64,000 nucleotides of DNA from an uncultured Poribacteria bacterium (GTDB lineage Bacteria > Poribacteria > WGA-4E > WGA-3G). Under the pieces are notes generated by a model that ran no database searches, was not told the origin of the DNA, and was given only the letters and a program-made list of their open reading frames with translations. Both the position numbers and the translations under genes were made by a program. Every line of letters starts with the position of its first letter. The first letter of the stretch is position 1. Where the stretch lies: NCBI GenBank assembly GCA_951828385.1, contig OX639973.1, forward strand, positions 2,533,200 through 2,597,199, read 5' to 3'. This document shows, in pieces, positions 10,172 through 19,932 of this stretch.

Positions 10172-12145
10172 TCAAAACGCATTGGCAACAATCACCAAGT
10201 CCTGAATATTCACGACACCATCGCCGTTGAGATCGGGTGCCTCCTCCCCCAACGCATTAGCGACAAGCACTAAATCTTGTATATTCACAACACCATCAGC
10301 GTTGACATCCACAGTAGGAGGGGTTTCTAACCCCGATTCTGATTTCAAATAAATCTCACCATCTAAGTCGGAGAGGGTATGCGAGCGTTTATCACCCACC
10401 CCGTTGGCAACTCCAGATACCGCTCCCGGGAACTCGATTGTCTGTTCCGTACCACTGCGGTTATACACCGCCCAACCGTTGGTGAACTCTCGGATGAATA
10501 ACCCTTCGCGGTTCTCATAAAGTTGACCCTTCGTTTCATCACCGCCGATCGGATAACCGAGGGAGTCATCCCAGAACTCCAGCCAGACAGAATGTACGCC
10601 CTTATATGTGATATCCACTCCCCAAAGTTGCTTACTGAATACGCCGCCGTTTTTGAATATCAGATAAGCATCGGAATGTGTCAGTGCGAGTGTTGTCAAG
10701 GAACGCACGACCTTCCATGTCTCAGATGAATCTGGAGGGATCCCCGGATTACCCCCCCCGGATATAGCATTGATGACGGGTTCTCGAAAAGGTGCTTCTG
10801 TTTCTGCCCAGAGGAGTGCGTCTTGGATTTTAGCAATTTCATGATCGTCGTATATAGAATTAGCGCCAGGTCCCGTCTCCAGCCAAACACCATTGATATA
10901 GGGTGCCCATCTCGGAATTTTTGAATGCGTACCCGTACCCGCGTTTACGAGAATTAAGAGGTCATCATCTATCTCACGGATACTCTGCAGAATAGCATCT
11001 CTCGCTGCATATTCTTCCTCAAGAGTTCTATACCCTTCAAGTCTTCGCCCAAGGTCCCAATGGTCGAGGATTATTCCGTCAAACAATCCGCATTGCGAAA
11101 TTGCTAATACCTGATCCTTGACCCATTGCTGCGTCTGAGGTAGCGTGAAATCTAATAATAGTGCTGCTCCCTCTCCCGAGTATTCTTTAACAATATTACC
11201 CTGTTCATCTCGGAGAAACAAATCATCGGAAATATAATTTAACCACATCCCTTTGTCATCCAAGTCGCCTCGGTAATAGACAACAGGCACTAACATCACT
11301 AAATTAGGGTTTAGTGATAACAGTTCGGCACGTCGCTGCTTCGCCTGAAAAATATGATCTATCAATACGGGTTTGGTCCCGTTGGCAGTGCTACGAAGTT
11401 CCCAGTAAAGATATAGATCGTCTGGGCAACAGAAATAAAGATCATGGATTGGGATATTTTCAAATTTATTTTCGTGGATCTCTAAAACGTGTCCCCAAGT
11501 ACATAAAAGAGACGGATAATCACGACTTTGGACACGTTCATAGACTGAAGGGCGTTGAATATCACACACCAAATCATACTCAAGATTTGTAATCTTGGAT
11601 GTATTAATCATGCTAAGATCAACACTAATGTTACGCTTTGTATTCAGGCTTTCGAGATTTAACCCTGCAAGCGGTGAAAAATCCGTAATTCGATTATTGG
11701 CAATATTCAACAAATTGAGATTGACTAACCCTGTGAGCGGTGAAATATCAACAATTTGGTTGTTCGCAAGTTTTAATCCACCTAACCCTGTGAGACCTGC
11801 AAGGGGTCGAATGTCAGAAATCTGATTGTGTGACAAATCCAAAAAAGCAAGTGTCGTAAGTTCGGACAAAGGCGATATATTGCTAATTTCATTCTCTTCC
11901 AGAATAAGGGCATGACAATGGGTTGCGTGTTCTAAGCCTGTAAGATCGACAATCCCTTTGTTTGGCACATCGAGATGCCCTAAGGATTGAAGGTGTGCCG
12001 GTGCTAAGGGCACATGTGCAGGGATGTCAAGTGTTTCCCGGACAGCCTCGCGGAGCATAGGGTCTGGCATCCACTCCTCAGCATGAACACTTATTACAAC
12101 ACATAAACAAAATACTATCAAAAAATATCTCATGTTTATCTTCAT
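10172..12145 (-). CDS. Secreted LRR / hydrolase-like / dockerin protein (intact copy of the local family)
   Basis: A 657-residue protein with a signal peptide (residues 1-22), an internalin-type cap WMPDPMLREAVRE, about five leucine-rich repeats of the NxIxDIxPLxxL type (residues 60-165), a central domain that resembles TIM-barrel glycoside hydrolases of the GHL type (LLDFTLPQTQQW, CGLFDGIILDHWD, LLILVNAG), a C-terminal beta domain (GLFIREFTNGWAVYNRSG) and a type I dockerin pair (DVNADGVVNIQDLVLVANAL, then DLNGDGVVNIQDLVIVANAF). The carbohydrate role is inferred. Related copies lie at 14410-16755 and 17260-19932. A palindromic element is embedded in the linker before the dockerin. Confidence 0.8.
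   Translation of the reverse strand: MKINMRYFLIVFCLCVVISVHAEEWMPDPMLREAVRETLDIPAHVPLAPAHLQSLGHLDVPNKGIVDLTGLEHATHCHALILEENEISNISPLSELTTLAFLDLSHNQISDIRPLAGLTGLGGLKLANNQIVDISPLTGLVNLNLLNIANNRITDFSPLAGLNLESLNTKRNISVDLSMINTSKITNLEYDLVCDIQRPSVYERVQSRDYPSLLCTWGHVLEIHENKFENIPIHDLYFCCPDDLYLYWELRSTANGTKPVLIDHIFQAKQRRAELLSLNPNLVMLVPVVYYRGDLDDKGMWLNYISDDLFLRDEQGNIVKEYSGEGAALLLDFTLPQTQQWVKDQVLAISQCGLFDGIILDHWDLGRRLEGYRTLEEEYAARDAILQSIREIDDDLLILVNAGTGTHSKIPRWAPYINGVWLETGPGANSIYDDHEIAKIQDALLWAETEAPFREPVINAISGGGNPGIPPDSSETWKVVRSLTTLALTHSDAYLIFKNGGVFSKQLWGVDITYKGVHSVWLEFWDDSLGYPIGGDETKGQLYENREGLFIREFTNGWAVYNRSGTEQTIEFPGAVSGVANGVGDKRSHTLSDLDGEIYLKSESGLETPPTVDVNADGVVNIQDLVLVANALGEEAPDLNGDGVVNIQDLVIVANAF
10314..10338. 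repeat. Palindromic element inside the LRR/dockerin gene
   Basis: GTAGGAGGGGTTT then CTAACCCCGATT forms a GGGGTT/AACCCC hairpin. It encodes the SGLETPPTV part of the linker on the minus strand. The paralogues have a shorter linker at this place (ESGTSADVNGDG and ETGSSMDINGDG), so the element looks inserted in frame. A copy with one or two differences lies inside the glycyl-tRNA synthetase gene at 35338-35366. Confidence 0.6.
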
Positions 12146-14409: not shown

Positions 14410-16755
14410 CTATTTGAGGATTACCATTTTGCGCAGGAAGGACAACTGATCTGCCTGGAGTTGGTAGAAATAGATACCATTCGCAACGCGTTCACCTACT
14501 TCGTTCCTGCCGTCCCAATAGGCGGCACGGTTCTTGGTAACATAATAACCCGGATGTTGATGTCCGAGTTCTAAACGCTGGATAATGCTGCCGCGTGTGT
14601 CATAGATGGTAATCCGCACATCACTCGGATCTGCTAAATGATACGGAATCCACGTTTCTGGGTTGAATGGGTTCGGATAGTTGGCAAGTAACACTGTTTT
14701 TTCTGGGATGAGCGATGCTAAGAGGCGTTGAAGGTTAGCAATACCGCGTTGGAAGGCGATAGAGCCGTCATTTTCAAGTTGTGCCTGTTCTATCCATGCT
14801 TGTATCACTGCAGCATCGGGTGCCCCCGAAATCATAGCGGGTGCGGCAGCCATTTCGCCGCCCAAGTGTTGTGCGATAAGGATGAGGTCAAGGATGTTAA
14901 CAATCCCGTCGCCGTTGACATCGACTTTTGAGTTAGGTGGCCCGGTCTCACCAAGGTATTGCGCAACCAGCACTAAATCCAGAACGTTAACAACGCCATC
15001 GCCGTTGACATCTGCAGATGTGCCGCTTTCTTGTTTCAGATACATCTCGCCATCTAAATCGGGGACGGTGTGTCGCGTGGCAGTAATACCACTGGCGACC
15101 CCTGTCGTTTCCATCGGCAAAGTGATCGTCTGTTCCGTACCACTCCGATTATACACCGCCCAACCGTTAGTGAACTCGCGGATGAATAAGCCTTCAATCA
15201 TCTCACCAGCGGTGTTGACGTAGTGCTGACCTTTGGTTTCATCGCCACCGACAGGGCGACCGAGATCCGCATCCCAGAAATCATACCAATAGTGACTTTT
15301 TTCTGTTATACCTTCAATATAAAGCACATAGCCATCAGAATGTGTAAGACTCATTGTCGTAAAAACGCGCATCCATCTCTGGTTTGTCGGACTATCAGGA
15401 TTCTCGGTTGGAATCCCTTGTGCTTCCAAACAATTAATCTGCGGCTCTCTAAAATTTTTTTCTGACCATAGCAACGTGTCTTCTATTTCAGTTAAGTGTT
15501 CATGGGTGTAGGAACCAATATTAGGGTCCCATCCGGTTTCCATGAAAGTGCCATTGACATAGGGAGCGGAACGCGGGGCTTTGTACTGAACGGTGTTGAC
15601 AAGAATCAGAAACTCGTCGCCAACGGCTTCACGGATACGCCTTAGCATTGACAACTTCGCATCTACCTCTATTTTGGCATATTTCGAGTCTATATCCTCT
15701 ATTCCTGCGCGATTATAAAGTATACTTCTGTCCTCAACCCACCAATCCAAAAAAATGCCGTCGTAAAGTCCGCACTGTGCCACCGCAATCGCTTGCTGAA
15801 CAAAAAAATCTTGTGCACCCGGCTGTGTAAAGTCGATGAGAAAATCTTCATATCCGGGTTCTTGAATGCGATTCCCTGATGCATCTCTGAGCCAATAGGG
15901 CCAATCTTCCGGGTACTGATCAGCAGGTGTTGCTTGGTAGGAGATTACCGGAAGAAAAATCATGTTTGGATTATAGGAAAGGAGCACATCTCGCTCATGT
16001 TTTGCGGATGCTAAATCTCCAACGAGTTTTACACCTTCAGGTGCTACGTACCACCCCATATTAAATATCCGACGAGAATAATATAAATCATGGTATGAAA
16101 GTTTCTCTTCCCAAGACAACTCGGGGAGATTGATAGCAGACTGCTTCTGATAAACGGATGGATAACTGCGATTTTCAAGCCGTTCAGCAATCGGATCGTC
16201 TTCTAAAAGACATACCCAATTCTCTGCGACATCTAATTCCAATATTGGCGAGAAATCGCCTGGATTTCCCGCCACCCTGATAGACTTCAGATTTCTAAGC
16301 TGGAGGAGTGGCGTAAAGTCAACAATCTGGTTATACTGTAATTTTAAGTCTTCTAAGTTCACAAGATTTGCGAGTGGCGTAATATCAACAATCTAATTTC
16401 GGTAAAGTCTTAGCACCTCTAAGGACACTAAACCCGCAAGTGGTGTAATATCAACAATCTGACTACGGCTTAAATTCAGAAAACGGAGATTAATAGCGTG
16501 TTCTAATCCCCGAAGATCTGCTATATCAGATTCAATAACCACCAGTTCACGGAGTTTAGCCATATCCGAAGTGCGCAGCGGTGTTGCATCCGGCAATTGA
16601 AGTTTTTCTCGGACAGCCTCTCGGAGCGCAGGATCCGGCATCCAATCTTCTTCATTTTCTGCATAGACGGAAGTATTATAAACAAGTATGCCTATAACGG
16701 ATAAAAATAGGAACTGAACCCATAACGATTTACATAATTTTTCTTTTATTGTCAT
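14410..16755 (-). pseudogene. LRR / hydrolase-like / dockerin / T9SS-tail protein interrupted by an in-frame TAG
   Basis: The start is ATG 16755 with AAAGGAGA upstream. It encodes a signal peptide, the cap WMPDPALREAVREKL and leucine-rich repeats up to LRLYRN. A TAG at 16393-16395 then replaces the Gln expected in NQIVDI, and the same frame continues IVDITPLANLVNLEDLKL to the end. The second half alone has no ATG start (GTG 16362). The rest has the hydrolase-like domain (LIDFTQPGAQDFF, CGLYDGIFLDWWVE), the beta domain, a complete dockerin pair (ADVNGDGVVNVLDL, VDVNGDGIVNILDL) and a FlgD-like / T9SS type A tail (NYPNPFNPETWIPYHL to KMVILK). Either a point nonsense mutation or a read-through codon; the open downstream frame shows it is recent or tolerated. 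Confidence 0.75.
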
Positions 16756-16771
16756 AAACGAATCTCCTTTC

Positions 16772-16812
16772 TTAAAACGCATTGGCAACAATAACTATAG
16801 TAGAATTAAGAG
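16772..16812 (-). pseudogene. Detached end of a dockerin module
   Basis: On the minus strand these bases read LNSTIVIVANAF then TAA, matching the last residues of the dockerin of the intact paralogue (LVIVANAF). The 19 bases ending at this stop are the same in both genes. No start or body is attached. Its orientation and position fit the missing end of the sigma-fused gene's dockerin, separated from it by the hairpin array. Confidence 0.65.
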
Positions 16813-16854
16813 GGCACTCTCAAACAATTCTTAGTGCTCTCATCGGCCTTGAAA

Positions 16855-17172
16855 GTGCCACAGGAAACCAGCGATCTCCTATGCTACAGAAAAAGTGCCA
16901 CAGGCTAACAACCTATGCTACAGCAAGAGTGCCACAGGAAACTAACGGTCTCCTATGTTACAGAAAGCGTGCCACAGGCTAACAGCCTATGCTACAAGTG
17001 CCACAGAAACCAACGGTCTCCTATGCTACAGAAAGCGTGCCACAGGTAACAGCCTATGCTACAGCAAGAGTGCCACAGGAAACTAACGGTCTCCTATGCT
17101 ACAAGTGCCACAGGAAACCAACGGTCTCCTATGCTACAGAAAGCGTGCCACAAACTAAAAGTTTGTGCTACA
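16855..17172. repeat. Array of nine small hairpin repeats
   Basis: Nine units begin GTGCCACA and end CTACA, starting at 16855, 16895, 16929, 16969, 16998, 17037, 17070, 17105 and 17145. Each has a central stem-loop. Two main stem types alternate: GGAAACC-AAC-GGTCTCC and AGGCT-AAC-AGCCT, and the last is ACAAACT-AAA-AGTTTGT. The stems change on both sides so pairing is kept. The whole 16813-17199 stretch has no gene on either strand. Confidence 0.85.
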
Positions 17173-17202
17173 AATATGTAGGATTAATTCTGAGTTTCAC
17201 TA

Positions 17203-17259
17203 TAAATCTAAGATATTAACCGCACCATCGCCGTTGATATCCATAGATGAACCCGTTTC
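17203..17259 (-). pseudogene. Untranslated start of the sigma-fused gene's dockerin
   Basis: Immediately after the TAG at 17260-17262, the same frame reads ETGSSMDINGDGAVNILDL and then a second TAG at 17200-17202. This is a typical first calcium-binding dockerin repeat, aligned with ADVNGDGVVNVLDL of the neighbouring copy. The first TAG replaces the CAG (Gln) found in the paralogue (YLKQESG). So the dockerin was once part of the protein. Confidence 0.75.
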
Positions 17260-19932
17260 CTATTTCAGATAAATCTCACCGTCTAAATCAGAGAGGGTGT
17301 GATTAACACCAATAGTCCGGCTTGCGACACCGGTGGCTTGCATGGGGAGTTGTATATCCTGTTCCTTTCCGCTGCGATTGTAGACCGCCCAGCCATTGGT
17401 GAACTCACGCATAAATAATCCCTCAACCGCATGTCCGTTAGGATTATGATAAAGTTGTGCCTTCTTGCCCACAGGGCGACCCAACGGGGCATCATAGAAG
17501 TCATACCAATAGTGTTGGTGGTTGTGAAGATGCGATTTACCTTCTATATGCTCCCGCTCATGTCCTGGCCAGATCTCGTATTCATGTTCATGGATGATGC
17601 CACTTACCCCTATATTGTAGCAAACGTAGCCATCGGAATGTGTGAGGCTCAGGGTTGTAATGACACGCATCGTTTGCTGGTTACGCGGGGAATCTGCTGG
17701 CTCAAGCGATATGCCACGCCCTTCAAGCGCATTTATTTGCGGGTCACGCAAATTCTGCTCCGACCATAGCAACGTGCTTTCAATTTCACGGAGTCCAGCG
17801 TGCGTGTAACCTGTATTCTGTGCGTCCGGAATAGCTTCCATGAACATCCCATTAACGTAGGGGGCAGAAAGGGGTGCTGGACGCTGGTGCGTTTCGACGA
17901 TAATCAGAAAATCGTCACCAATAACCTTACGAATACGGCGCACCAGGGATATTCTTGCCGACCCCTCGGCTTCAACACTTCGATAATAAACACCTTTGTC
18001 ATTATTAAGCGTAGCCTGACCTTCCTCCCACTGACCCAAGAAGATACCGTCGTAGAGACCACATTTTGCTACAGCAACGGCTTTCTGAACGAGAATATCC
18101 TGCACGGCAGGGTGTGTAAAGTCTATCAGGAAGTCTGAAGCATCAGCGTAAACTCGAACGCGATTGCCGTTCTTATCTCTTATCCAATACGGCCAATCTT
18201 CAGGATAATCCCCAGGATCGGCATCGGTGTAGTCAAAGCTCACAAGTCTTATAAAGTTAGGATTTTGTGAAAGAAGATACTCTCTTTTCCAATAAGCATC
18301 GTCTATCCTACCAAAGAGCCGAAACCCTTCAGGTGTAGGGTGCCATTGCAGGTGAAACCCCAGTCCACCCCAAAACAGATCGTGATATATGAGTTTCTCA
18401 TCATCGGATAAGTTTGGTAAGTTGAGAATATCGTTGCCCGACCACGCTGCAAAGATCGAAGGGTAACCTCTCTCTTTGATACGAGGGCCTACTGCAATCC
18501 TTGATATATAATCGCCGACCCGAAAATTGCCTTTAATTTTTACAACCTCTAAGTGACGCAACCCATCAAGGGGTGAAAAATCCCTAATATCATTATTCTG
18601 TATTGACAACTTTTTCAGATTGACTAACCCGGCGAGGGGTGAAATATCTTCTATTTCGTTCCGCCAAATGTGTAAAGTCTCTAAACGCGTGAGTGCTGCG
18701 AGCGGGCGGAGGTCTGAAATCTGGTTGCCACCTAAATCAAGAAAACCGAGTTTCGTTAGACCCGACAAAGGAGATATATCCTGAATCTTGTTCTCTATCA
18801 GAACAAGTGCCTGCAAATCGGTCGCATGCTCTACACCTGTAAGATCGGCAATCCCTTTGCCTCGCACATCGAGGCCTGTCAAACGTTGTTGAAGATATGC
18901 TTGGGTCAAAGGAACATCTGACGGCATATCAAGTTTTTCTCGAACCGCCTGTCGCAGTGCGGGATCCGGCATCCAGTATGTCTCCGAAACGCTGAGTGAA
19001 TCCTCCGAGGCATTGGGAGTTGAATCCCGCTCGGCAACTTGTAAGCCAGCACCGCGAGTTTCACTGGCGACAGTACGCCCGATCTGATTTCGTACAGCCG
19101 GTTTTAGGGTGGTATCAAGTACAATGGGTGCCTCAATAATTTCGACCGTAGGTTCAGATGCTGCCTCGAAACTGTAGGGTCTCTGAAAACGGATGAGGTG
19201 TTGATTGCTGACACCGAGCAATAAGGCAACCAAAACCACGGCGGTGCCGACAGCTGCCCATGGGAGCAACGGTTTTGAAGCTGCGGGCGGTGTAAGTCCT
19301 ATATCGGCGACCCGCCGCATGATGTTTTGTTTTACACTTGCCGGTATCTGCACGCTGCTGAGCACTTCTTGAACGAGGGATGCTTCTTCCGCTTGTAACC
19401 GTTTGCGTGCCCGATACAGTCGGTTATGAATTGCGCTTACGGAAACCCCTAAGAACCGGCTAATTTCTTTGACCGTCATTTCGCCGAGATAATGGAGCGT
19501 CATGACTGTCCGTTCACTCTCTGGTAGTTTTGATAGCAGTTTTTTGACGATCTCACGGCGGTGTTCGGATATCGCTGTCTCCGACTGCTCCGATACGTGA
19601 TGGGTATAAGAGGCTTTCTCAATGTCTTCCACAGGTGTGTCCTCCAGCGATTGTGTCGCAAGATTTTTCTTCCGTATCCAATCAATACAGAGCCGGTTTA
19701 CGATGACATACAACCATCCAGCGAATTTATAGGGGTCTTTAAGTGTCGGTAATTTTTTGTACACCTGAAGGAACGTGTCCTGTGTAATCTCCTCGGCATC
19801 GTGAAAATCGCCGACTTTCCGCCACGCAAGGGCGTGAACGCTTTTCTGGTGTTTTTCGACCAAGACACCAAACGCCGCTTCATCACCCGATAATATTTTC
19901 TGAATGAGTTGAACATCGCTTTCTTTTTCCAT
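17260..19932 (-). CDS. ECF sigma factor fused to a transmembrane helix and an extracytoplasmic LRR / hydrolase-like domain
   Basis: One uninterrupted 890-codon frame with AGGAGG 8 bases before the ATG. Residues 9-90 are sigma-70 region 2 (DAEEITQDTFLQVYKKL, KFAGWLYVIVNRL) and 122-182 region 4 (LPESERTVMTLHYL, MTVKEISRFLGVSVSAIHNR). A membrane helix spans about 222-241 (LPWAAVGTAVVLVALLLG). After a low-complexity linker comes the cap WMPDPALRQAVREKL at 320-335, leucine-rich repeats to about 470, the hydrolase-like domain (FLIDFTHPAVQD, CGLYDGIFLGQW) and the beta domain GLFMREFTNGWAVYNRSG. The outer half resembles the two neighbouring secreted proteins. The likely role is transcription control by an extracellular carbohydrate or surface signal; that is inference. 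Confidence 0.85.
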   Translation of the reverse strand: MEKESDVQLIQKILSGDEAAFGVLVEKHQKSVHALAWRKVGDFHDAEEITQDTFLQVYKKLPTLKDPYKFAGWLYVIVNRLCIDWIRKKNLATQSLEDTPVEDIEKASYTHHVSEQSETAISEHRREIVKKLLSKLPESERTVMTLHYLGEMTVKEISRFLGVSVSAIHNRLYRARKRLQAEEASLVQEVLSSVQIPASVKQNIMRRVADIGLTPPAASKPLLPWAAVGTAVVLVALLLGVSNQHLIRFQRPYSFEAASEPTVEIIEAPIVLDTTLKPAVRNQIGRTVASETRGAGLQVAERDSTPNASEDSLSVSETYWMPDPALRQAVREKLDMPSDVPLTQAYLQQRLTGLDVRGKGIADLTGVEHATDLQALVLIENKIQDISPLSGLTKLGFLDLGGNQISDLRPLAALTRLETLHIWRNEIEDISPLAGLVNLKKLSIQNNDIRDFSPLDGLRHLEVVKIKGNFRVGDYISRIAVGPRIKERGYPSIFAAWSGNDILNLPNLSDDEKLIYHDLFWGGLGFHLQWHPTPEGFRLFGRIDDAYWKREYLLSQNPNFIRLVSFDYTDADPGDYPEDWPYWIRDKNGNRVRVYADASDFLIDFTHPAVQDILVQKAVAVAKCGLYDGIFLGQWEEGQATLNNDKGVYYRSVEAEGSARISLVRRIRKVIGDDFLIIVETHQRPAPLSAPYVNGMFMEAIPDAQNTGYTHAGLREIESTLLWSEQNLRDPQINALEGRGISLEPADSPRNQQTMRVITTLSLTHSDGYVCYNIGVSGIIHEHEYEIWPGHEREHIEGKSHLHNHQHYWYDFYDAPLGRPVGKKAQLYHNPNGHAVEGLFMREFTNGWAVYNRSGKEQDIQLPMQATGVASRTIGVNHTLSDLDGEIYLK

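Follow-up and report, generated by a model that had tools for sequence, protein, structure and literature searches.

Two pieces of a dockerin stand on either side of an array of hairpins in a 64,000-nucleotide stretch of Poribacteria DNA (hereafter the window, which lies wholly within one 6.66-Mb contig of the source genome, G000:C1), and a TAG stop precedes both pieces. The locus raises the question of whether the repeats entered a functional dockerin, the simplest reading according to the initial annotation, and whether the stop came before or after them, which that annotation left open. We consider it very probable that the stop had already turned the dockerin into an untranslated remnant, and that a 405-bp IS630-type MITE, with an array of GTAG hairpins as its cargo, was inserted afterwards.

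The gene preceding the remnant, gene A (17260–19932, minus strand), fuses an ECF sigma factor with LRR and GHL15 domains, as identified by domain search, and its translation ends in DLDGEIYLK followed by the TAG (17262–17260, minus strand). In frame behind this stop lies the left part of the dockerin, ETGSSMDINGDGAVNILDL (17203–17259, minus strand), and on the far side of the insert lies the right part, VIVANAF with a TAA (16772–16795, minus strand). The two flanking pieces had been recognized from the outset, with the end read as TIVIVANAF; the “TI” comes from the final bases of the insert, and the true end is VIVANAF. The hairpin array, described earlier as filling the space between the pieces, does lie there but forms no more than the core of the insert: nine head-to-tail units in one orientation occupy 16855–17171 (minus strand), and the insert itself has its edges at 17202 and 16798, the former 57 bases from the stop of gene A and the latter 42 bases ahead of the start codon of gene B. 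Domain search assigned LRR and GHL15 domains and two dockerin repeats to gene B (14410–16755, minus strand), and identified gene C (10172–12145, minus strand), used here for comparison, as an unfused paralogue whose two-repeat dockerin is translated; both paralogues score against Dockerin_1, and the repeat of the remnant resembles theirs. From a type I dockerin (Pfam PF00404), the remnant differs in having one repeat instead of two, in standing behind a stop and in being interrupted; the end of gene A was checked for two translated calcium-binding repeats, and the single repeat present lies behind the TAG.

Counterparts of the locus were sought in 40 genomes. A relative with a dockerin stretch free of the repeats, which had been proposed as the check, was found in two Poribacteria, G020 and G005, and no relative was seen in which these repeats occur with some other gene preceding the dockerin end. 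At the orthologous, insert-free loci, the flanks match over 188 nt (93%) and 98 nt (86%) in G020 and over 189 nt (86%) and 99 nt (84%) in G005, with just about ten bases between the two flank matches in each. The joined flanks of the source genome align with G020 without a gap; against G005, there is one additional codon ahead of the stop, and the spacer has diverged. Because these insert-free loci match both flanks, the split dockerin is not a chance resemblance. The source junctions read GATT-TA / TAGTGAAAC ... CTACTA / TA-GTTATT, and the empty site, GATTTAGTTATT, has TA once; therefore, 405 bp (16798–17202, minus strand) entered and the TA was duplicated, leaving copies at 17203–17204 and 16796–16797, as determined by comparison with both empty sites. 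A hairpin array from a candidate phylum can thus be described as an insertion with base-exact edges and with relatives that lack it.

G020 and G005 carry the identical TAG, so the stop predates the insertion, which decides the order of events; the same TAG is present in the orthologues Plut_88864 and SB0662_bin_35, and the one-repeat state behind it already exists in G020 and G005. The repeats did enter a dockerin-coding stretch that is uninterrupted in relatives, but the proposal that this dockerin was functional is unsupported, given the prior TAG and the single repeat. A sample of 40 homologues was then compared, comprising 38 of the first 42 in the homologue list (G014:C857, G051:C3:215, G012:C154 and G009:C1:23985 were left out) and two later entries; two gave no motif and 38 were scored. 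The sigma domain is in the same frame in 16 of the 38, and 15 of these stop 0–1 codons past GEIYLK (13 with TAG, 1 with TAA and 1 with TGA); the remaining one has an unrelated tail of 171 codons, and a translated dockerin was found in none of the 16. Two dockerin repeats are translated by 18 of the 22 homologues that have no in-frame sigma domain, and a further one shows a single repeat by the motif applied. The other three end where the sigma-fused homologues do; alignment reveals two of them (G005 and G049) to be sigma-fused, with an additional stop upstream. As judged from these sequences, dockerin loss goes with sigma fusion, because 0/16 fused versus 18/22 unfused homologues translate the two-repeat dockerin, and the element was inserted subsequently, into a remnant no longer translated; this enzyme family regularly loses its translated dockerin on fusion to an ECF sigma factor. 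G049 (L168/L252, isolate p16x34bins.28) has an intact two-repeat dockerin frame behind the TAG, although with another stop upstream.

These comparisons bear on two alternative histories of the tail. If the array had entered a dockerin that was still translated and working, with the TAG arising later, the joined flanks would be expected to yield the uninterrupted dockerin-like frame that they do yield behind the TAG; however, the stop shared with the insert-free G020 and G005, with Plut_88864 and SB0662_bin_35 and with most of the sigma-fused homologues, together with the single dockerin repeat left at the insertion, refutes this history unless several lineages acquired the TAG independently, and we regard it as scarcely credible. 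The other alternative, that the TAG was read through at some rate and the half dockerin still served as a functional minor extension at the time of the insertion, draws on the retained frame of G049 and, above all, on substitutions: behind the TAG, eight differences separate G020 from G005, all eight synonymous, an outcome that no random set of eight changes reproduced (0/100,000). Such all-synonymous differences are not expected of a freely decaying remnant and count against simple decay. The tail of the source genome differs from each of the other two by four non-synonymous changes, beside 10 synonymous changes in one comparison and 8 in the other, and in these three pairs the pN/pS of the gene body is near 0.3. 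Exchange with paralogous dockerins would explain the tail better, because its pS exceeds that of the body in all three pairs, the G005 tail is closest to gene C of the source genome (54/56 nt), and the tail of Plut_88864 and SB0662_bin_35 is followed by a 3′ flank (KTRNN) found behind another paralogue as well; with many paralogues compared and a tail of 26 codons, this is suggestive only. Decoding also speaks against read-through: TAG looks like an ordinary stop in the source genome, because RF1 is present and no CUA anticodon was found among 46 tRNAs (Rfam RF00005, which could miss an unusual tRNA). TAG ends 12 of the 34 long ORFs in the window, so that none of the three marks of recoding (a CUA tRNA, loss of RF1 and rarity of TAG stops) was seen, and G005 and G049 have another stop upstream. 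Functional read-through is therefore very unlikely in our estimation. A second, weaker RF1-family match with one in-frame TGA lies at G000:C1:823099-824145 and is, we presume, perhaps prfB with its known frameshift.

The preferred reading, insertion of a MITE behind an existing stop, makes the insert one member of a larger family. It has imperfect terminal inverted repeats (TAGTGAAACTCAGAATTAA... at one end and ...TTAATTCTACTA at the other), which pair as TAGTGAAACTCAGAATTAA / TAGTAGAATTAA, the right end being 7 nt shorter than that of a second copy in the source genome. This copy, at G000:C1:5.079 Mb, shares both ends, holds three hairpins and adjoins no dockerin, and the insert is therefore mobile. 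A first degenerate end pattern gave 74 matches in the source genome (control, 0) and a second gave 110 (controls, 0), the latter being present in 33 of the 38 genomes of the genus. Thirty of the 74 matches were read as loci, among which typical copies measure 126–129 bp, with TATAGT ends, and many hold one GTAGCACAAACT-type hairpin. The subfamily of the window's copy comprises 15 matches in 9/38 genomes with 0 to 9 hairpins each, the window's copy having the most; with one mismatch allowed, TATAGT was counted at the left end in 13/15, and the right-end pattern failed in 7/15, the window's copy included.

TATAGT ends on both sides, 908–916 bp apart, also delimit 12 of the 31 DDE_3 loci examined in relatives within the genus; the closest of these IS630-type elements, L152, has TATAGTAAAGTTTAGAATTAATGATAC where the MITE has TATAGTAAAGTTTAGAATTAATTGGGCAC. 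A partner IS with such ends was not found in the source genome, neither of whose two DDE_3 genes has them. As far as sequence can tell, the anatomy of the insert shows a TA-targeting IS630-type MITE, and we infer that a transposase of this kind would be the one that moves it. In the available portion of PMC2229807, RUP of Streptococcus pneumoniae is described as an IS630-related MITE that is short (107 bp), non-coding, inserted at TA and present in many copies. The window's element resembles RUP and other IS630-related MITEs in being short and non-coding, with IS630-like terminal inverted repeats, TA insertion and many copies, and differs from RUP, as described there, in its length (405 bp) and variable hairpin array and in that only related species yielded a full-length IS with matching ends (PMC2229807).

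The nine hairpin units, all on the minus strand, lie at 17145–17171, 17105–17137 and 17070–17102 (units 1–3), 17037–17062, 16998–17029 and 16969–16995 (units 4–6), and 16929–16961, 16895–16921 and 16855–16887 (units 7–9). Each is a short-looped palindrome with a tag beside it, GTAG in eight units and GTAA in the ninth (unit 7), and most folded units have stems of 8–11 pairs and loops of 3–6. Across the genus, the exact pattern GTAGCAYA-N5-30-TGTGGCAC had 98 matches in 22/38 genomes versus 11 for the reversed pattern. In a set of 15 different 27-nt units, pairing is kept at six of the eight stem positions in 15/15 and at two in 12/15, and two positions show changes in both arms of the stem; the search pattern itself fixes the hairpin feet in the genus list, and in the 27-nt units both the feet and the outer letters of the stem. 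The whole element folds as RNA at −158.8 kcal/mol (z −5.8 against 100 shuffles) and is strongly structured, as expected for an array of palindromes. When seven single hairpins were folded as DNA, equally good folding was reached by 0–18 of 200 shuffles in four and by 74–135 of 200 in three. A CRISPR was rejected, the units being palindromic, of two length classes and joined by short recurrent linkers, with no spacers; an Rfam search of the 64-kb window yielded only a tRNA above threshold. Hairpins of the same GTAG type occur without TATAGT ends at three loci of the source genome (L001, L011 and L020, at 2.017, 5.026 and 6.075 Mb), in a different, recurrent context with the right flank ...TTTCCCAATCYGCRAA..., ...ACAATTGACAAAATATTTACACA; the hairpin module is therefore present in at least two backbones. 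There are also chimeric hairpins, such as AGGCT-GTT-GGTCTCCT, whose left and right arms come from different stem classes (for example, in G003:C64, G010:C228 and L011), as if arms recombine at the loop.

The hairpins themselves might instead be the mobile units, that is, GTAG REPs moved by a RAYT and arriving singly instead of as cargo of a MITE. Their GTAG at one end, 8–11-pair stems, short loops and paired stem changes are like those of GTAG-tagged REPs in the portions of PMC3733652 available to us, and the motif recurs without these terminal inverted repeats at L001, L011 and L020. However, the exact edges of the insert coincide with the terminal inverted repeats and the TA duplication and not with hairpin edges, and, unlike those REPs, the hairpins have no flanking RAYT: within 1.5 kb on each side, none of the 12 Y1_Tnp loci of the source genome is directly flanked by them, two having a lone GTAGCA-type motif more than 1 kb off. 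We therefore consider independent arrival of single hairpins highly improbable. Nine head-to-tail units are unlike the arrangements called usual for REPs in the same portions (PMC3733652). The GTAG-15 dimers of A. variabilis sit, according to that text, within TATAGGA...TCCTATA palindromes, which provides a precedent for a GTAG hairpin inside a TATA-ended palindrome (PMC3733652), and the present locus ties GTAG-type hairpins to an IS630-type carrier.

In the proposed sequence of events, the stop immediately behind GEIYLK in the sigma-fused gene first turned the dockerin, which is still translated in unfused relatives, into an untranslated remnant, of which one repeat is left in the lineage of the source genome, G020 and G005, probably through recombination between the two near-identical repeats. 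The 405-bp non-autonomous IS630-type MITE then entered a TA within the remnant and duplicated it, as the orthologues free of the insert in G020 and G005 show. The GTAG-hairpin cargo, varying from 0 to 9 units among related copies, has probably grown by tandem duplication or unequal exchange. The locus is, in short, a non-coding mobile element in the already untranslated tail of a sponge-symbiont gene, a case of tail decay and a jumping repeat and not of damage to a working dockerin. The literature search found no publication pairing Poribacteria with dockerin, and we claim absence from print no further than that.

Given their position between genes A and B, the hairpins are probably transcribed. 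Speculatively, the transcribed hairpins may shield the end of the upstream mRNA or dampen read-through into gene B, roles made plausible by statements on REPs and MITEs in the available portions of PMC3733652. A scan of 16600–17400 gave one terminator-like site versus 0.8 expected and two promoter-like sites versus 1.4, without an excess over shuffles, and the case for a regulatory part is therefore one from position. A bolder proposal, rather unlikely in our view, is a composite element in which an IS630 MITE carries an expandable GTAG-hairpin array whose unit number (0–9) differs between copies and would tune, like a dial, the gene that follows, in this case the dockerin enzyme gene B beside a sigma-fused gene.

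Gene B has an in-frame TAG at 16393–16395 (minus strand), at residue 121 within the LRR region, and its counterparts are open, with 674 aa in G020 and 649 aa in G005. The best named homologues of gene A are from Candidatus Poribacteria MAGs, with weaker ones from Chloroflexi MAGs, which encode the C-terminal enzyme part at 46–50% identity (L275, L277–L282, L287, L292 and L296); these Chloroflexi homologues may reflect transfer between bacteria sharing a host.
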